A stretch of DNA of 64,000 bases from Tetmemena sp. SeJ-2015 (taxonomy: Eukaryota > Ciliophora > Spirotrichea > Sporadotrichida > Oxytrichidae): contig JAJKFJ010021942.1 in assembly GCA_027382625.1 (NCBI GenBank), positions 1-64,000 on the forward strand, given 5' to 3'. Below, piece after piece: positions 12,080 through 23,197 of this stretch. The notes beneath the pieces were generated by a model. It saw only the letters and a list, made by a program, of their open reading frames with translations. It ran no database searches and had not been told where the DNA came from. The translations under genes and the position numbers were made by a program. Position 1 is the stretch's first letter, and every line of letters starts with the position of its first letter.

Positions 12080-13336
12080 ATGAATTAATACCAAAACTAC
12101 CCCATGGACATAAGATACTAACCTAATGCACCCTCTAAAGATAGAGAAGCACGCGATTTTTATAACATGTACCAGACTAATGGAAGCAACTAAATCCCCA
12201 TGCGAGGCCAAGCTTAATTTGACAATAACTTCAACAATTTCAATGATGACTTCTTTGGTGATGAGCTGGATAATTATCCAAAAAGAGGGGGCTAGAATTA
12301 CAACAACAATTTCGGAAGAGGCTAAGATATGGGCACTCCACTTGGAAGCTTTAGGAATTCTCGCATTTTCAGTGATGAGGGAGACAAGTTCTGATTCACT
12401 ATTTATTTTTTTTTAGATTAACTCTGATAATGATTTTCATTTATTTCTAATTGTAATTTTGAACTTATGACTAGATCGACAGATACTTCGAGGAGATTAT
12501 AAAGAAAGTGAAGCAGAGGTGCCAAGCTCTCAAGTCATAATTTGATCAAATAGAGCTTAAGGAAAAGTAGAGACTTGAAAGCATCAAGTAAAAGATAGAT
12601 AGAGATGTTGATATGATCCTTTTTAATTATACTTGAATATATATTATCCAAAGCTTTTCATCAGAATACTTAAAGTTTTATAATGAGTTCGGTAAGACTT
12701 TGGGTTCTATGCTAATTAAGTATAGATGAGAGGAATGATTTTAACTCCAATAAGGCCACTTACTCCAAGTTTCTGAGAGATCTATATCAAACTTATAATA
12801 GTAATAAGAATTTCAAGTCGGTATATATAGGACATGAAACCTATTTCCTAGCTGGTGGCTATTGATCACAAGAATTCAAAATCTTCCAAAAATAAAACTC
12901 TCTTAGCTAATGAATTCTTCACTATGGTGTATGAGAAAAGTAAGCACCAGGTTTATTGCATAGGAGGATTTAGCATAAACAAAGGGTGCGCTCTTGATAA
13001 TGTAGAGAGATACTATCTTAATAACAAGTTGCAAACTTAAACCATAAAAGAATAAATGCTGGCTCATGTACTATCGGCAACAATCATATCTTCGTATTTG
13101 GAGGGAGAAATGAAACTGATACCTTTTATGATTCAGTGGAGAGATTAAACATAGAGCTAAATCTCTGGAACCTTCTCAAGATTAAACTTCCAAAAAAACT
13201 TTGCAACGTATTTTCATTCACATTCTAGACGGATTACATAATCATAATGGGTGGGTTAAAGAAATATTAAAGTCACGTCCTTATGCCAAATGAAAAGCAG
13301 CCAGCGAAAAAGAAAAAGTAAGATAAAGCAAATGCT
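12080..13336 (+). CDS. Kelch-repeat protein, probably scrambled
   Basis: The N-terminal part is N/Q/Y-rich (about 12030-12400). It is followed by an IES, a coiled coil (IDRYFEEIIKKVKQRC, about 12476-12620) and at least two kelch-type blades: VYCIGGFSINKGCALDN (about 12950) and HIFVFGGRNETDTFYDSV (about 13088). A third blade begins at YIIIMGGLKK (about 13235). A Lys-rich stretch then leads to the pointer-like word GCAAATGCT at 13328-13336, directly before TGA. The same word is inverted at 13417-13425, and joining the two keeps the frame (see the findings). The first in-frame ATG in the N-terminal part is 12080; coding appears to extend a little upstream, so the true start is unsure. Kelch propellers usually bind partner proteins. 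Confidence 0.6.
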
Positions 13337-13425
13337 TGAATATATAATTCTTCTTTAGATTAACAATAGAGATATACTCCAGTATCTACTTCGTATTCAG
13401 GTATAGGAGCTGATTCAGCATTTGC
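13328..13425. repeat. 9-bp inverted pointer candidate GCAAATGCT
   Basis: GCAAATGCT stands on the plus strand at 13328-13336 and on the minus strand at 13417-13425. The minus-strand sequence running leftwards from 13425 is open in the frame that continues the kelch protein (ESAPIPEYEVDTGVYLYC). This is the geometry expected for an inverted MDS lying next to its partner. Confidence 0.5.
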
Positions 13426-13487
13426 AAATTAATCGTAGATATTTGAACTTGCTCCCACTCCTTCTTTTCAAAGCTGTATCTCTCTAT
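13340..13487 (-). CDS. Inverted kelch-like coding segments
   Basis: The minus strand holds two short protein-like patches: ERYSFEKKEWEQVQIST (about 13480-13430), typical of the last strands of a kelch blade, and ESAPIPEYEVDTGVYLYC (about 13417-13360). Neither has a start codon. They lie tail-to-tail against the plus-strand kelch gene and in front of the stop of the 13.5-14.8 kb gene. I infer they are MDSs of the kelch gene. They could instead be a 3' extension of the neighbour. A 9-bp direct repeat, ATGCTGAAT, flanks the first patch and could be a pointer pair as well. Confidence 0.4.
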
Positions 13488-14804
13488 TCAGCATAACATA
13501 TTAAAGAATTGCCTCGCCTTATACATCTCCATGACTTCTTGCATTATTCCCTTCTAAATCATAAATGCTCTTTTGGAAGAAGATATTTAAAAATTCTTAG
13601 GCATTTTTTCTGACAAGTTTTCTTCATCGATGATTTAGAGTTGCTTGAAAGACTTGACCTTGTCTCTGTACTCAAAAAGTCCGAATTACTAAGTATTGAA
13701 TACCACAAGAGGAGTACTGACACTCGAGTTGTCCATTATTTTTCCAATTTTTTCTATCATGTTAATATCGGTATCAATTTGTTGGAATTGAGAGGGCTCG
13801 TGCTTTGGAAACTTAAAATAGTAAGGCTTTCTTTGTAAACTTGTATAAATAAACTTTAAAATATTTTGATAGATAAGATAGTTTATAGAATCTTTAATTT
13901 TTTCTAGATCTCTCAGAATTGAGACTTTAAATATGGTTATCTAGTCATAAGTGTTGATTGTGTGACGATCATGGAGATCAATCTTGTTCTGTATCTTCTA
14001 TACTTTGCCTTCAATTATAGCCTCAAACTGCACTCTCTTCTCATTCATTAGTCTCATGTTCCCAAGAATGTCTCCATCTAAAAGAAGAGTAAACCTTAAT
14101 TCTGACATTACTCTTCCTGTAGTTGAGATACTGCTGACCACCGTTCATTTTAATACTTTATTTAATTAATCTATCTTACTCAATTGAACTAAGACTGTTG
14201 AATGAAGATCTATGAGATTGCATTCCGTTATTACTACTGTTGACTTAAGGATATTACTATCCGTAGTAATAATTACCTCCCTAGTTTTAGCTCTGGCTTC
14301 TATCCCATTGATGTTACTATTGATATGAATAGTTGTGCACAGACTATTTGTCATTAACTTAAAAATAACTGTTGACTGTCTGGCTATAGAATTTCTCGAA
14401 ACCTAGTTATAATAAGCTTGTATTATTTTAAAGGTTAACATTATTATAGCAAGTAATTGCGGAGGTAGATCTTTGATAAAACTGCTTTCGTTGACTTTGT
14501 TGAAGTGGTCATCTAGTCTTAAGATATCAAGTGATAGATCGTTATCGTAGCCTTGAAGTGGTCTCTCCCTGCTGCGTGGGTTTCTGTTGATAGGGCCTAA
14601 ATTCATAGCGAGTATGTCTTAGTCTTCCTTTTAATCCTCCACTCTGAAATTGAGTTCTTTAAGCTCAAATACTTAAGGCTCCTTTCTCTGCTATTAAGAC
14701 TGTCCAAGTAGACTGAATGTGAGTGGGTCTTGGTCTTTGTCACTGCTAAGCATAATTGATTTCTTTAGCTCGGCTGTGATAGCTGTGGCTTTGCCAGTTG
14801 TCAT
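13488..14804 (-). CDS. Hypothetical protein, Q/S-rich middle and helical C-terminus
   Basis: ATG at 14802-14804 (MTTGKATAITAELKKS) is preceded in frame by a TGA, which supports the start. The acidic N-terminal part reaches KDLPPQL near 14460. A frame change around 14400-14460 (AT-rich, probable IES) leads to a Q/N/S-rich stretch (SVHNYSYQQQHQWDRSQSQN). A second change near 14110 leads to a long amphipathic helical part (FEAIIEGKVQKIQNKIDLHD). The nominal stop is TGA 13488-13490. I recognise no family. Confidence 0.45.
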
Positions 14805-14857
14805 CCTGGTTTCTATCTCCTTCTATTTTCATAATTATAAGTAAGTTATGTATTTAT

Positions 14858-15301
14858 TCAAATAGTAAAAATATCAATAGTAAAGATCATCTGCTGATTA
14901 GTCTCTATTAGGTCTTTGGTTGTTTATGAATAAACCCTATAAATATTTTATGAAAAATGATAAATTGAAGAGAGGTTTATGTCTCCATTGAGATGAGTCT
15001 TCTTTGCCTCAAGAGACTTCTTCATGAAATCATAGTTCCAAAATCTGTCTAGCTTCGGACAAATAAATCTCAGATCATAAATCAGACTCACAGGCAAATC
15101 AGATTTCTGATTCTAATCTAGAAGAAACAAATAGAATTTTCCATTCTCGTTGTGAATAGCATTGCAAATCTTGTGCTTAGAGGGAAGAGACTTCAACTAA
15201 AACCATTCTTCTTTAGATCAATTAATAAATTCATTTACGATAAACTAAAACAGGTGGTAGCAGATTGAAGCAAAAAGTTAGTGGCTAAAATTATATACCA
15301 T
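14858..15301 (-). CDS. Small hypothetical protein with one in-frame TGA
   Basis: ATG at 15299-15301 opens a frame of 147 codons to TGA 14858-14860. It is interrupted once by TGA at 15218-15220. Both sides look coding: FIVNEFIN before it, SKEEWFQLKSLPSKHKI after it, then FYLFLLDQNQKSDLPVS. The TGA may be a mutated or miscalled TGG (Trp would fit), part of an unrecognised IES, a recoded codon, or the sign of a pseudogene. The gene lies 137 bp beyond the selenophosphate synthetase SECIS candidate and on the same strand. No family is recognised. Confidence 0.4.
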
Positions 15302-15437
15302 GGTTAAGAATGTTAATCATATACACTAAAAAAACTCCTAGTTAAATTACTTTAATCACGTTTTCAATGGGAAAGATTTAACCAAAGTATTAGAAAATTA
15401 ATTTCTGTTAATCTTAGCCTATTTTTAGTTATTGACT

Positions 15438-15500
15438 AGCAATATCAGCCTTCCTTATTCTAAAGATTTGTAAGGAAAGCATCAAAGGGTTTTAGTTGCT
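15438..15500 (-). promoter_or_regulatory. Candidate eukaryotic SECIS element
   Basis: It lies about 45 nt after the stop of the selenophosphate synthetase 3' MDS, on that strand. The transcript would fold as a lower helix AGCAA/UUGCU with an internal loop, then UGAU facing UGAU (a SECIS-type non-Watson-Crick quartet). Above that is a nine-pair helix GCUUUCCUU/AAGGAAGGC and a 15-nt apical loop starting ACAAA. The UGA-to-AAA spacing of 12 nt fits the eukaryotic consensus. The base before the 5' UGA is U rather than the usual A or G. Confidence 0.65.
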
Positions 15501-15544
15501 TTCACATGAGACCAGATTAGATTTGGTTTAACTGAGAATGTTTT

Positions 15545-15843
15545 TCAACTATGGATAAATGATTCGGTAACATTGATAATATCTACGTCTTCCTTTATTA
15601 TAGCTTTATTGATACCCTTGGCAACATAGCCAACCTCCCAACTTTCTTATCCGTATTCTTCTCTTAGCTCCTTCATGAAGTCTTTGTACTTTGATTTCTC
15701 TAGCATTACAAACAGTCCTCCACTAGTTTCAGCAGAGTAGCCCTAAGTAAGTTTGTAGTCTCTGAGGTGCTTGACTAAGTGATTGATTTTATCCATTTTA
15801 TCAATAATTGGGAGTGAGTGAATGTGCAAGTCTAAGTTCTTGC
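15545..15843 (-). CDS. SEPHS2: Selenophosphate synthetase, inverted 3' MDS
   Basis: This segment encodes the C-terminal domain: IHSLPIIDKM, then GYSAETSGGLFVMLEKSK, then WEVGYVAKG, ending at TGA 15545-15547. The ETSGGL block is diagnostic for SelD/SPS proteins. It lies on the minus strand, upstream of and opposite to the segments encoding the rest of the enzyme. Its 5' edge carries the pointer GCAAGAACTTA (15833-15843), the same word that ends the plus-strand part. Joined there, the protein reads NLATAQRKNLDLHIHSLP, which aligns residue for residue with the animal enzyme. Confidence 0.9.
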
Positions 15844-15908
15844 TCTATCTACTGCTGATGGTAAGATAATGATCGAAATCTAAGGTGAATGAATTACTTG
15901 ATTATAAA

Positions 15909-17092
15909 ATGTCTCTGACTAAAATGATTCAGAGGCGTCAGTTCGGCCACTTGCTTTAGCGAATTAAAAGCTATGACAATGCCCAACTGGGATTGCCTCC
16001 TGAATTTCAACTAATAAGCTACGCTAACATGAAAGGATGAGGATGTAAAGTGCCAGCGGCGACACTGTTTAAATATCTGAAAGATATTGGAGATGGCTCC
16101 ATTGCCAAGGAAACTCCAGACTGCAGTGTTACCAAATACGCTCACGATCCTACCAAGCACATGATCTCCACCAACAGACTTCTTCTACCCCTGGTGGCAG
16201 ATCCATATATGCAAGGAAGGATCGCTTGCTGCAACACTCTCAGTGACATTTACGCTATGGGAATCGAAAGAGTAGACCATATGCTCATGATACTGGGAGT
16301 CTCGCTGCAAATGCAGGAACAACACAGGGAAATAGTCACAAGGGAGATGATTAGAGGATTCAATGACTGCGCAACTGAAGCAAAGACTATGATCACAGGA
16401 GGCTAAAGTATACTTTAAAGACTTTTAAAAAATTTAAAATTTTGGGAAAAAATTTTTTTTTTTTTCAAATTTGGAAATAATTTTTTTTTTAATAATTTAA
16501 CATTTTTAAACTTTAAAAAAGAAAAAGGAATTTTTTAAAGAATAATTTTTTTAATGTTTTAAATTAAAAATTTTTTGAGTTCTTCTGATGAGGATTGATT
16601 TCTTAATTTAAAGACGCTGTAGAACATATTTTAATTCCTTTTTATAAACTTGTCATGATATTAAAATTCTTTGCTCAATATTATGAATCCATGGCCAATT
16701 ATAGGTGGGGTGGCGAATGTAGTTTGTAGAGATGATGAAAAATAAATGGTGCTGTAAATTGACAAATTAATTTTTTTAAATTTACATCCTGCCAAGAAAC
16801 GGAGAAGAAGGAGATATTATAGTTCTAACGAAACCTTTGGGAACTCAAGTTTCAGTGAATGTGATGGAGTGGATGCAGAAGAATAATGACAGATGGGAGC
16901 TATGCAAGACTATAATTAATGAAGAAGAGGCGTTTAAAGCTTACCATCTCTCTATGGAGTCAATGGCTACCCTCAACAATAACGCAGCTAAGTTAATGAT
17001 GAAATACAAGTCTCATGGAGCCACCGATATTAACTGGCTTTGGAATACTAGGCCATGCTCAGAACTTAGCAACTGCTTAACGCAAGAACTTA
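15909..17092 (+). CDS. SEPHS2: Selenophosphate synthetase, MDS1-MDS3 (Sec-containing)
   Basis: The enzyme makes selenophosphate from selenide and ATP, the Se donor for Sec-tRNA. ATG is at 15909. The catalytic motif reads MKGUGCKVP, with U an in-frame TGA at 16038-16040 in the position of selenocysteine. Further family blocks are ADPYMQGRIACCNTLSDIYA, NPWPIIGGVAN, GDIIVLTKPLGTQV and GILGHAQNLA. MDS1 is 15909-16411, MDS2 16682-16754 and MDS3 16792-17092, separated by two IESs. With the inverted MDS4 the coding length is 1165 nt. One surplus A at 17032/17033 breaks the HGATDI-TGFGILGHA motif; without it the length is exactly 388 codons. I infer a functional scrambled gene. Confidence 0.92.
16412..16681. 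other. IES 1 of selenophosphate synthetase (270 bp, pointer TAT)
   Basis: Very AT-rich with long A and T runs. TAT stands at 16409-16411 and 16679-16681. Removing 16412-16681 gives GGQSIMNPWPIIGGVAN, which matches the conserved TGGQ-(T/S)-x-x-NPW block. A GT-AG reading of the same region would delete the NPW motif, so an intron is not favoured. Confidence 0.88.
16755..16791. other. IES 2 of selenophosphate synthetase (37 bp, pointer CTG)
   Basis: CTG at 16752-16754 and 16789-16791. Excision gives MVLPRNGEEGDIIVLTK, which aligns without gaps to the family block ending in GDVLVLTKPLGTQ. The alternative GT-AG intron would remove two residues and the conserved Pro. Confidence 0.82.
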
Positions 17093-17146
17093 CACATGCT
17101 TATTGATAAGATAATTTGAAAACTATTAAATCCATATTTATAAATT

Positions 17147-20110
17147 TCACTCTTGGTTCTCTTTGATCTCGTTTACCATGAGTTTGATTCTGTCTTGAAC
17201 TTAAAAATAAACTATTGAACTAACTTGATTTTTCTTTCATCTTGGACTTATCTTAAGTAGTCTAGGAGTCTTTTATCCTTCTGCACCTGCATTTCCAAGT
17301 AGCCCATATATTTCTCCGGAGTGAGGGTCCCAGTTGAAGGCTTAATGCTCAATAGTCTAAATATGATTAATAGATAAATACTTACAGCTTTTTGCTTAGG
17401 GAAGAGCTAAAAATTTGGTCTTAATTGCTTCAGGGGCTCTCTTTCCTTGCTCAGCCATTTTATGTATGAGAGTTTGCATCTCATTTACTTTAAATTCCAA
17501 AACAGAAATGCTTATTAAGTTTGTTAAAATTTAAGCAAAAATGAAGGGATTACAACTTAATTATATTTGTTTATGTTGTCTGGGTCATCCACATCAGCTT
17601 GGCTTACTCCTTCAGGCAGTACTCCTCCATTCACATCTATTTGTTTCTTTGCCAAGGATTGTCTGTGCACAGGTAATGGCTGCGCTTGAGCAACAGGCTA
17701 CTATTTCACTGGTGCTTACTTCTAAATAGCTTAAGGTATAGTAGAAAATAATAAAACATCTGAGGTTTAGGTTGCTGCTATTATGGTTCCTGAACTCCTC
17801 CAGGTTGTCTGAATGGCTTGGGGAAACCATCGATGACAATTCTTCTTAGGGGGACTTCGGTATACTCCTTCACTCTGGTGGGTTCTCTGAGCTTGAAATT
17901 TATTAGGATAGGGTGGTTTATGCCGTTGAATCTGATCTCCTTCTCCATGTCGCATTTAAATAATTTAGTACCCAAGTTAGTTAACTTTACCTTTTTCTAG
18001 TCCAGAGTGTTTGCACCAATGAAAGCCTTCTTCTTCAACTCAAACTCTACATCTTGCTGCGTAATTATCACTAAATTAATAATACAATACTTATTTATGT
18101 TTGTTTATAGCTTGAGATGGTTAGCATTCTGCAAGTTCCATCTCTCTGTATGATCTTTATCTAGTGGCATCCTGGACTCTAGCTTGAATTTGTCTGTGAT
18201 TGGAAAATCCACTTTAATGTAGTGGGAATTCAATTTGGCAAAGTTCTCATTAGTTTTGAATTGCACCACCAACTCCAACTCGTTAACGTCTTCATTCTTT
18301 TTCTCCACCTTTTTGTAGAGAGTCTCATGATGGTAAATGGGAGGGCCCTGCCAAGGATTCTTCTTAAAGGAATTTATGAGTTTTATCTACTCCTGACATT
18401 TCTTCGCTAGATCTAAGTGCTCCTAGAACAACTTAGTAAGGTGCTCTTTCTACTGAGGAGTAACTTTCAGCTTCACAGCTTCTGCATACTTTTGTGCTTT
18501 GCCCTTGAATTCCTCAAACTGATTGTTCAGCTCCACAGTCACCTCATTAAATTCTACACAACTAATTATAACTATTCAAAATACTTGTAAGTCTAGCAGT
18601 TTCATCCATTCCCAAGATTTAAACCGGAGTTACTGTAATAAATAAAATATACTGCAGGCTCAATTTTAAGCAGATCTATTCTCTTTCCTTGTACCAAGAG
18701 GCTTTTGAGATGAGCCATTTCTTCTGCAATAGTGAGAAACTTGAGAGCCTTTTCTCTGTCACCAGTCTTTAAAGTTAAATGGTTTATAAGATTTCTTACT
18801 GTTTCCTTCATATAAAGGCATGCCTCTCTGTAGTCTTCAATTCTTTAGCTAATGACATCATACGTGTTTTTGTCTACCTTGTTCCAATCAACTTCATCTT
18901 CTTTTATAGTAACTTGTTTCAAGTACTTCCTTTCATCGATGACTGGCTATTTGACCTCCTCCATATCAGCATCCCTTTGCTTGTTGTGTCTTATAGTAGA
19001 CTTTCTGATAATATCTTTAGCTGAAGCATTCAGTTGCTCTTGCTTAGAAAACTGTTGTGCTTCTATGACTTCGTTTTCATTAGGTGGCTCCTCAGATTCC
19101 GCCAGTTCAGCCTCAACAAGCTCGATTCTTTTCTTAAGTCTGATTATGTGATTGCTATTTTTAGGCAATTTTGAGCTGAGTTCATGGAGGTAAGACTTTT
19201 GAATAAGGATGTATTTCTTTACACCTGCCAAATATTTTTAAGGAGTCAAGATCCCTATTTGTACGTTGTTTTCAACATCTCCCTTCTAGTAACCCAAGTT
19301 CTCCAACTTGGTTTGGTAGAAATCCCGCTCAGGACCTTAAGATATCTTTATGAGCTTTTGCATGACCTCAATTTCGTTTTCAATGGCTGACATAGCCTCC
19401 ACATCGTCAAAGCTGTGCACTTTCTCTTCCACTTCGATATCGTCTTCAATGTTAAAGTTCATGTCTACCTTCACAAACTATGGAGCATTTTACTTTTACT
19501 GACTCTAAGCTTATTGTATGTTTTGTTTGGGATAAAACAAAAGTAAAGATTAGCCTAAGCGGGAGGCTGCTGTTGGGGAGGAGGAAGACTTGGTTTAGAA
19601 GCATTGAGAAGAGCAGGGTTTTAAGTCTCCATCTCTAGCTTTTAAGCTTCTAGTTTCTTCTTTTCCCTGAGCTAAGCTATTGCATTTTCATTATCGCCTT
19701 CTCTCTTAAATTTTAGAGCCTTTTGAGTTACTTCAGTGATCTAACTCACAATTTCTTTGTACTTTTGGAGCTCACTTTCTCCTTCATCTTGCTCTATAGG
19801 ATATTTAATAAACTTCTTAATGATGTACCATATTCATCTAGTTCTGCCATGAGTTCGTCTTCTCCGATTTCATCCGGGTTTAAGTTCTTCAATTTATAAT
19901 GTAATAAACAATTTCTCTACACACACACGATAAAACATTCAATCAGTAACACTCACCCTGCTTGGCAAGTAACTGCCCAAACTCTTTCATGTCAGTGTCC
20001 TCTTCTTTGAACTCCTTCATCATCTTTACATAGTCAGGGTCATTCTTTAGCATATTGTTCATTTCCTGCTCATGCTTGGCCATCATCTCCTGGTATTTCT
20101 TTGCGTCCAT
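17147..20110 (-). CDS. CC2D1/Lgd-like protein (DM14 repeats and C2 domain)
   Basis: ATG at 20108-20110 opens MDAKKYQEMMAKHEQE. DM14-type helical repeats follow: KYKEIVSQITEVTQKALKF near 19740, and LKFLTIAEEMAHLKSLL near 18700. Between about 18300 and 17850 lies a C2-like domain with KKKAFIGANTL and INFKLREPTRVKEY. The C-terminal helical region (GTLTPEKYMGYLEMQVQKD) ends KLMVNEIKENQE at TGA 17147-17149. This order matches CC2D1A/CC2D1B and fly Lgd, regulators of ESCRT-III and endosomal sorting. GT-AG introns occur (one from about 19831 to 19798, joining DEY to EQDEGESELQ). An IES with pointer AGTTCAA (17195-17221) restores the last residues. The proximity to SPS is tail-side only and suggests no joint function. 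Confidence 0.75.
17195..17221. other. 20-bp IES with 7-bp pointer AGTTCAA
   Basis: On the minus strand AGTTCAA occurs at 17215-17221 and 17195-17201. Excision converts a drifting frame into KLVQDRIKLMVNEIKE, the expected end of the CC2D1 family. Confidence 0.8.
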
Positions 20111-20216
20111 CTCTCCTATCTGTAATGCAATTATTTATATCTGACTAATATATCTTTCCAAATTTAGATATAATAAAGAGGACTCTCTAAAGCATTACAA
20201 ATAATTAATTATAAAA

Positions 20217-23197
20217 TCAAGTGGGTTTGTATGACTTAGGCACTCCAAACATGCCTTAGTCTATGTCCTTTTGCTGTTTCTCTTCCTTCTTTTTTAGTTT
20301 GTTCCTGATGGACCTGCAATTATTAATTCCATCATGTTTGTTCTTGAACTTACTTAGCTCTTCCAACTGCTTGGTAAGTTAATCACTCTTGCTGAGGTAC
20401 TTGTCGGACTCATTCATGAAACTCTCAATACCTCTTTGATTTTGCTTTTTGAGTATCTTCTATACTCTTTCTTGCTTCTTCTCCTTCTCACTCTTGCCCA
20501 TGATCTTGTCCATATGGAAGCGAGGCACATTGCTCCAGGACTGCATTGATCTACTATTCTCAGCGAGCACATCTTTCTCCTTCAACTTCTTCTTTTTCTT
20601 GTCAGTCCCTACTCCCTTTTACTTGAATAGCTTATCTCTTGCATGCTGCATGTTTTCTTCGTCATGCTTTTACTGAATCTCTGGATCTTCCACTCCCTCG
20701 TCATCTATCTAGTCTGCAGCATCCTTATGCTTTTCAGTTATTATTCCAGTAAACTCTATCTTCATGTCGTCCTATCTATCCTCATCCTCGCCTCCTGCTT
20801 AAGTTTCACCATCGTTTTAAGCCCCTTCAGGTTCAGCTAAGTCCTTCTCAGTCAGTTAAATTTCTGGACACACCTTAACTCCCTTATCCTTCCTCCTGTC
20901 CCTCATGTTTGATAAACGAAGTCCCATAAGTCTAATTGCCTCAATAGGCCAGGCCTAATTGAGCAGAATTATCCCATACTTTTTGAACTAATTCTAGCTG
21001 TAGAGATAGTGAGGGAAAATGTCATAGACTTTATCTTTGTCTCAAACTTGAAACGTCTTAAACTCTAGTACTAGGGTCTTCCCCATTACTTTGTTTTAGG
21101 CCCTGCTCTTACTTCCAATTCTGCTGCAAGTCTAAACATCTTCTCCTTAAATTAGTTGTATCTGTGAATTGGCTTGAAGGTGCAACTCACTCCCATACTT
21201 CTTTGAGCTACCACTCCTTCTTCCTTTTCGTGCATTACTCTCGCTATCCCCTAAAGCACTCTTTACCAAAAGAACTGAAAAGCATGCTCTGTAAAAGTCA
21301 CATAAACTTCAGTAGCTTTCTCAACTAAGTCCTTACAGGAGTAGATATTCAAACCAGAAAAGAATATGCTCGTTCACTTTACCAACTCCAGGAATCTTTC
21401 TCACTGGTAAAGTCCATCATAAACTTAAGTATCTCCACCTCATCGTTATATAAATAGGTCTTATCCGTTCGGCTTATTAAGTTCTGAGCATATCTTAGCC
21501 AGCATCTTGTTACAAGAGATTCCTGCACTAGCTGTCATTCCCATGTCTAAAAAGATCTGTTCCCTAATCTTTTGTGCAACAAATATCTTCCCAAGATCGT
21601 TATCCATGCTATTATCAACTAAGTAATCCGTTAAGTCCAAATTTGCCTCATCCAATCCAACACTTTCTAACTTTGGATCAAAGATTGAGAGGATTCTTTT
21701 GAACTAATCAGAAGCCTGCCTATACTTAGGATAATTGGGCTTGATGAACACTAAATGAGGGCACAATTTTCTCCCTATAAATCCAGGCATTGCACTTTTA
21801 ACTCCGTACTTTCTAGCTATATAATTTGTAGTAGTAATCATAGTATTATCACCAACTGCCACTGGTTTCTTCTTCAAACTTGGGTTATCTCTGATCTTCA
21901 ACGGCTGCATAGAACATATCCATATCAATATGCATCCAAGTCCTTCTCACCTCTCTCTCCCTCATCATTTGCTCTACTAATGTTTTTACTGTTTCCTTTG
22001 TTTTAAGCCATAACTCTTTGTTGGCCTTGAAATTTCTGAGCTTGTAGAGGTATCTTCTTACTTTCTGCTCTACTTGTCTGTGTTTCTGTTCTTGAGTCTT
22101 GAAAAACTCACTCTTACAGGAAGACTCCATAATAACTCTCTTTACTTCTTCTTAGTCTACACTATCCATACCAGCTTTCTTGCCTATATCAGTCGCATAA
22201 TTTCTTTGATTCACCAGTTCTTCTGAAAGATGATGAGATCCTTATAGTTGATTATGATTTACGTTGTGAGTAGCTTTGACCTTATTAATGTTGGCTACTG
22301 ACTGCTAATTAGAATAGTCATTGAAGTCAATTACTTTGCCGTCCCTAATGATCTTAGTATTGTTGAAGTCTAGTGGTATCTAGCCACTAACTGTAGTGAT
22401 CATTTTCATCTGCTGCCCATTAGCTCCAGTGATGATAATTTCATCAGGAGTAGCATCCTCGATTTCCTCCTCTGGTATTTATATCTTTTTTTTCTTAAAC
22501 TTAGGTGCTTTTGGGTCTTTTTCTTTGGTCTTAGTAGATTTTTTATCTGGATCTTGCTACTAATCAGCTTCTGTTTCTTATTCACTTTCACTGCCAGAAT
22601 TAGCTGTGTTATCAGGCTATGGAAGTTCATTAGATCCCTCTCCAGCAGCTAATAGGTTTGCACTTTTCTTAGAAGTAACTTGAAAACTAAATATAGACTT
22701 TTTAGCTTCACGACGAGCTGCAGCATCCATTTTGTCATCTAATCTAAGATCACTCTCGTCTTCAGAAGAACTACTAGAACTAGACTAACTGCTGCTAGAA
22801 AGAGAACTACTGCTACTTTTGCTTCTTTTCGATTTTTGAGAATTGTTTGATTACGATGAGCTTATGGAGTAGAGTGACTTGGTATCTTCTTCCTCTGCTT
22901 AATCTCTATGCTCAGAGTCTTGACTTGTTTTAATCGTACCTTTTAGTTTTTTGAGAAGTTGCTCACTGATTGTAGTGAATTCCTTCAGATTTGAGTCAAC
23001 TTCCCTCACTTATTATATCTAGTCTGCATTTAATTTGTAGAAAAAGCATTATTCATGAACTGATCAGTGGTTATGAGTCCATCAATTGATAACTAGCTCA
23101 TAACCCCCTCATTCTTGGCATAAGAGTGATTATCATCTCCAAAAATACTCAAAATATCTTACTCATTTAATTAATCAAATCCTTCATCCTCTTCCAT
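20217..23197 (-). CDS. POLK: DNA polymerase kappa (Y family)
   Basis: Translesion DNA polymerase. ATG at 23195-23197 opens an acidic, Ser-rich N-terminal extension of about 330 residues. The catalytic core then reads HIDMDMFYAAVE (metal-binding Asp), TTNYIARKYGVKSAMPGFI, GLDEANLDLTDYL (the second catalytic Asp-Glu), SAGISCNKMLAKICSELNKP, then VRKIPGVGKVNEHIL (helix-hairpin-helix). The little-finger domain ends AIRLMGLRLSN. A basic tail continues to FGVPKSYKPT and TGA 20217-20219. Frame changes near 23010 and 21440-21360 mark IESs or introns. No UBZ finger is seen in the tail, unlike the animal protein. The MGLRLSN part could be mistaken for the start of a separate gene, but it is the end of the little finger. 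Confidence 0.88.

Follow-up and report, generated by a model that had tools for sequence, protein, structure and literature searches.

A selenophosphate synthetase (SPS2/SelD) gene of hypotrich type almost certainly lies in its germline (micronuclear) form in the window, the 64,000-nucleotide stretch of DNA analysed here, with its four segments scrambled in the order -4, 1, 2, 3, as judged by sequence comparison. The window comprises bases 1-64000 of contig C2944 (155,730 bases), part of an assembly of 146 Mb in 5213 contigs, and was translated with a code in which TAA and TAG encode Gln and TGA is a stop. The parts of the locus, by position in the window, are:

15444 to 15484, minus strand: SECIS-like hairpin UGAU-GCUUUCCUUA-CAAAUCUUUAGAA-UAAGGAAGGC-UGAU, with a 10-bp helix and the 13-nt loop CAAAUCUUUAGAA
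15444 to 15544, minus strand: 3' UTR part of MDS4, its outer end near 15444 being a guess from haplotype divergence
15545 to 15843, minus strand: coding part of MDS4, inverted, encoding the C-terminal quarter, with the stop codon TGA at 15545-15547
15833 to 15843, minus strand: 11-bp pointer GCAAGAACTTA at the start of MDS4
15844 to 15908, plus strand: spacer between MDS4 and the ATG of MDS1, with 2 of 65 positions differing between haplotypes
15909 to 16411, plus strand: MDS1, from the ATG, ending in the pointer TAT
16038 to 16040, plus strand: in-frame UGA, codon 44, at the Sec/Cys position (MKG-UGA-GCKVP), present in both haplotypes
16412 to 16681, plus strand: IES1, 270 nt (367 nt in contig C4059), with the second TAT at its end
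16682 to 16744, plus strand: MDS2, ending in the pointer TA; should the extra AAA of the window be non-coding, the end would be at about 16736
16745 to 16784, plus strand: IES2, about 40 nt, with the second TA at its end
16785 to 17092, plus strand: MDS3, ending in the 11-bp pointer
17082 to 17092, plus strand: 11-bp pointer GCAAGAACTTA at the end of MDS3

The reading frames of the coding pieces open at 15909 on the plus strand and extend from 15843 to 15545 on the minus strand. The predicted protein passes the cut-off of the best SelD model, TIGR00476 (227.9 bits against 125, residues 35-306), and matches human SPS1 (3fd5) at full length (residues 21-379, E 5e-88), in agreement with the gene identity proposed by an earlier, sequence-only reading of this DNA. 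A further model, NF010705, covers residues 33-378 at 234.5 bits, below its own cut-off of 291. The active site has the form expected of SPS2, Sec or Cys followed by GCK, here UGA-GCKVP. The genetic code points to a hypotrich-type ciliate germline, as do C4A4 telomere-type repeats at the first base of nine contigs among the matches listed; the control for the C4A4 search was uninformative, since the reversed word is identical to the query word.

The junction between segments 3 and 4 is part of the case for scrambling. The sequence-only reading had proposed four segments with the last one inverted, and this arrangement stands on three lines of evidence: a second haplotype, a concentration of haplotype divergence in the IESs and homologues that run contiguously across the join. 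The 11-bp word that it had placed at 17082-17092 and, inverted, at 15833-15843 is exact at both sites, and the junction protein that it had predicted (GHAQNLATAQRKNLDLHIHSLPIIDKM) is gap-free against human SPS1, as it is against 10 of the 13 other sequences in alignment A1, the ten being those long enough to reach the join (P0002, P0007 and P0018 stop short). Since GCAAGAACTTA occurs 216 times in the 146-Mb assembly, the word is not rare in itself and it is the register that counts. Among random opposite-strand pairs of 61 nt, a same-diagonal run of at least 11 was seen in none of 20,000. With all diagonals allowed, 1 of 2000 pairs of 61 nt and 25 of 2000 pairs of 121 nt had a word of at least 11 in common. 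The pointers at the 1/2 and 2/3 junctions, TAT and TA, are too short for significance alone. We infer from these sequence comparisons that inversion of DNA would be needed to make the SPS2 gene.

Relatives of the protein bear on the same join. P0002 (95% identity over residues 49-280) and P0123 (84% over residues 303-379, with a 3-residue insertion in common with the query) both come from source lgn, a close relative, with a longest contig of 1403 bases each. If they sit on one contig, both halves lie within 1403 bases, the strand of each half being unseen; in the window, with its germline order, this stretch takes up about 1.5 kb. The more distant P0127 and P0122 read in one frame across the 3/4 join.

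A DNA search of the assembly, in which the best candidates were scored, returned one other copy of the gene, on contig C4059 (22,207 bases), and no third. C4059 is collinear with window positions 12292-22210 in two local alignments (98.9% and 98.6%) and holds the segments in the same order, -4, 1, 2, 3, and orientation, so the arrangement is not a one-off assembly error. Its segments add up to 503+60+307+288 nt = 1158 nt, that is 385 codons plus stop in a single clean frame, in which the sole internal stop is the UGA at codon 44. The two haplotypes differ at 0.6, 1.8, 0.3 and 1.0% of aligned positions in the coding parts of MDS1, 2, 3 and 4, respectively (MDS2 counted as far as 16736), versus 23% in IES1 and 27% in IES2 (97 and 4 gap columns), in line with weaker constraint on the IESs than on the segments. 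Between the haplotypes there are eight codon changes, seven synonymous and one non-synonymous, in a count that leaves out one gapped codon and the columns with a gap in C4059. On the minus strand, none of 100 aligned positions differs in 15445-15544, versus 11 of 230 in 15215-15444, which suggests that the inverted segment continues past the stop at 15545, where it had earlier been thought to end, into the 3' UTR. If no further segment lies elsewhere, the spacer at 15844-15908 would have to hold the 5' UTR and, on the same condition, probably the 5' chromosome end as well.

The comparison with C4059 also bears on the reading frame. With the TA pointer at the 2/3 junction, the total for the segments in the window is 1162 nt (503+63+308+288) and not the 1165 nt first reported, and the surplus A noted along with that figure turned out to be an extra T at about 17030 that C4059 does not have (GATATTAACTGG versus GATATAACTGG). 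A functional surplus A, either a frameshift or a 1-bp IES at about 17030, was rejected because the base is absent from the other haplotype. Within MDS1, the window copy carries one additional base at about 16171 and is a base short after about 16190; these indels compensate each other and leave TNRLLLP in place of the TTDFFYP of C4059 and of the relative P0002. At all three indel sites C4059 agrees with the family (TTDFFYP, DITGFG), so the surplus base would be a consensus error or a private allele and stand outside the mechanism. The MDS2/3 border lies near GATGATGAA, as judged by haplotype divergence. Joining at TA gives DDEYILPRN in C4059, matching DEYILPRN of P0002 and gap-free against the family, and leaves one extra lysine in the window haplotype. 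CTG was rejected as the pointer at this border on the grounds that it adds residues, that divergence begins just after GATGATGAA and that P0002 reads DEYILPRN. Introns in place of the IESs were likewise rejected, AG borders being absent on inspection.

The AT-rich core of IES1 (window 16423-16576) matches more than 80 sites of the assembly, on either strand, with 67-89% identity; C4059 has longer, unlike sequence in this region. The core may belong to a short repeat family or reflect plain AT-rich similarity.

In the alignment column of codon 44, four of the five other covering rows have Cys (P0005, P0010, P0012 and P0049) and P0006 has Trp, possibly from a UGA translated as Trp. The host very likely reads UGA as Sec, to judge from the tRNA and gene sequences found in the assembly. 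Two matches to the Rfam tRNA-Sec model, on C1731 and C3954, are above the cut-off at 69.7 bits, and the one on C1731 has the anticodon UCA. A third match to this model (C3464, 48.1 bits) is called a tRNA-Ser by ARAGORN, whose own search for tRNA-Sec found none in loci L019 and L020 and gave a tRNA-Ser in L021. Glutathione peroxidase (GPx) genes with UGA in NVASK-UGA occur on C4477 and on C5006/C2734, and an uninterrupted thioredoxin reductase gene on C1778 (22380-23831, locus L055) ends in GGC-UGA-G. The search for the Rdx family gave 0 matches.

The other thioredoxin reductase copies (C3274 and C4425) are in pieces. The whole copy at L055 could represent somatic DNA, a gene without interruptions or DNA of another organism. 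The SECIS scan beside the thioredoxin reductase copies gave imperfect matches only in L055 and L059 and none in L058.

Reading the UGA at codon 44 as Sec would call for a SECIS, and the hairpin at 15444-15484 is quite probably that of the SPS2 gene, judging by its sequence and position. It begins 60 nt past the SPS2 stop codon, in the putative 3' UTR, is identical in both haplotypes and has the features of a type I SECIS, namely a UGAU/UGAU core (UGAN/KGAW), a helix of 10 bp and an A-rich loop (CAAAUC...). We scanned for such elements with a custom scanner that requires a UGA, a perfect helix that has 9-13 pairs and includes two or more G-C pairs, an A-rich loop start and a GA on the 3' side. 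The hairpin was the sole perfect match on both strands of the window (128 kb of strand), while 15 shuffled 64-kb strands gave 0-2 matches each, nine in total, of which one was equally strong. Across other loci (271,546 strand bases) the scanner made 13 matches, 12 of them in loci from the GPx search (seven contigs, many of the matches overlapping or allelic) and one elsewhere. In the GPx loci inspected, the hairpins lie on the GPx strand and downstream of the gene, at 419 nt (L030) and 485 nt (L027) from the stop, distances that do not stand for measured 3' UTRs. Of the three GPx groups, two have UGA at the active site.

The two UGA-containing groups, each with downstream hairpins on the same strand, are L030 (C4477; UGA at 1370-1372, hairpin from 2237) and L036/L041 (C5006 and C2734; minus strand), and their hairpin cores are UUGA and AUGA. 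The Cys-type GPx genes (NVSSKCGLT) of L027, L028 and L029 (C4566, C3356 and C1694) also have a SECIS-like hairpin, at about 2461-2535 and with the core AUGA, which could be a relic.

Alternatively, the gene may be scrambled as described and the hairpin a product of chance, with the UGA decoded by another SECIS element. We consider this unlikely, although several observations lean toward it. The Rfam SECIS models gave no match at E up to 10, as would suit a chance hairpin, but they are just as blank on the GPx loci L030 and L027. Folding compared with shuffles is not exceptional (z-scores of -0.30, -0.94 and -1.60), and the base before the core UGA is a U; an A precedes the core UGA in most SECIS. 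Chance would also have to have placed the only perfect match in 128 kb of strand just past the SPS2 stop and kept it identical across haplotypes, and it offers no account of why the other scanner matches are concentrated in GPx loci, most groups of which have the active-site UGA.

With the hairpin taken as the SECIS of SPS2, we propose the following mechanism. During development of the somatic nucleus, the two IESs would be excised at the short pointers TAT and TA, and segment 4 would be inverted relative to segments 1-3 and joined to them via the 11-bp pointer. The product would be a small chromosome with one 385-codon gene, containing the sequence NLATAQRKNLDLHIHSLP. This inversion would restore the C-terminal quarter of the enzyme and, at the same time, move the 3' UTR hairpin in cis into the transcript that carries UGA-44, so that the UGA could be read as selenocysteine. 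In the germline, the UGA codon and the hairpin are about 550 bases apart on opposite strands, and the Sec codon is thus probably readable only after the developmental inversion. We infer the unscrambling in the source species, the function of the hairpin and the insertion of Sec from the DNA sequence.

It is very improbable that the locus is a decayed or duplicated pseudogene, with a working, unscrambled gene elsewhere in the germline. The window copy does have three single-base indels and, read alone, therefore resembles a broken gene, and the assembly may be incomplete; yet the copy on C4059 is fully open, the codon changes between the haplotypes are mostly synonymous and, among the best candidates scored, the assembly DNA search brought up no third copy. 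Joining at the RNA level, by trans-splicing of opposite-strand transcripts such as joins exons in some organelles, or an inversion made by the assembly is scarcely credible, given joins at short repeats that by inspection lack AG acceptor borders, a code and C4A4 repeats that point to a ciliate germline and two contigs that agree.

The scrambled SPS2 gene fits what has been described for hypotrichs, in which short pointers serve for the removal of IESs and longer ones for joining scrambled segments, guided by a maternal RNA template (PMC2394655, PMC9797194). The closest parallel is actin I of Stylonychia lemnae and Oxytricha trifallax (PMC2394655), which likewise has segments on both strands with pointers at each junction (3-19 bp) and combines ordinary IESs with an inversion junction at a longer pointer. 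SPS2 differs from it in having four segments versus ten in S. lemnae, in keeping segments 1-3 in order with the last segment alone inverted and in that actin I involves no recoding signal. The pointers of SPS2, 11 bp at the scrambled junction versus 3 and 2 bp at the others, also follow the trend in Oxytricha, Tetmemena and Euplotes woodruffi for scrambled pointers to be longer than non-scrambled ones (PMC9797194). According to the same study, translocation and/or inversion is required at 13.6% of Tetmemena gene loci, and its passages on scrambled loci name no selenoprotein gene (PMC9797194).

Eukaryotic SPS2, as described in PMC4561486, is a SelD enzyme whose active-site residue is Sec or Cys, is often itself a selenoprotein and serves as a marker of Sec use; the present gene is alike in its active site and unlike in its germline copy, which is divided into four segments and has its 3' end on the opposite strand. 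The hairpin resembles the SECIS of ciliate GPx genes (PMC7409322) in its UGAN/KGAW core, the A-rich start of its loop and its position 50-110 nt from the stop, and its size (10 bp, 13-nt loop) is near that of the Tetrahymena GPx element, with an 11-bp stem II and a 13-nt loop. In that 2020 survey the SECIS was undetectable in eleven Sec-containing ciliate GPx (PMC7409322), unlike here, where hairpins occur close to SPS2 and GPx genes that contain UGA. A selenocysteine tRNA has been reported in Oxytricha and Stylonychia (PMC3558436, PMC4122937), in papers whose main text mentions neither SECIS nor selenoprotein. At the level of titles and the starts of abstracts, with subscription journals mostly outside the scope, the papers listed by the literature searches included neither a scrambled selenoprotein gene nor a selenoprotein gene with its SECIS on an inverted segment.

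Inverted segments are a familiar feature of scrambled genes, so the arrangement of SPS2 alone would be one more case. What sets it apart is the apparent presence, on the inverted segment, of a signal for translational recoding in addition to coding sequence. If unscrambling failed, the C-terminus should be lost and with it the decoding of the UGA, which makes the locus well suited to a clean test of how DNA rearrangement and recoding are linked. Moreover, SPS2 makes the selenium donor for Sec; if the proposed mechanism is true, every new somatic nucleus would depend on one inversion for its selenoprotein synthesis.

Beyond the gene itself, the SPS2 locus illustrates that haplotype divergence can mark IESs without any macronuclear genome: in the 10,021-column alignment of the haplotypes, five blocks pass the divergence filter, two of which are the IES1 core and IES2. 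The remaining short blocks of high divergence, at window positions 12609-12645, 17531-17567 and 21051-21102, could be IESs in neighbouring genes.
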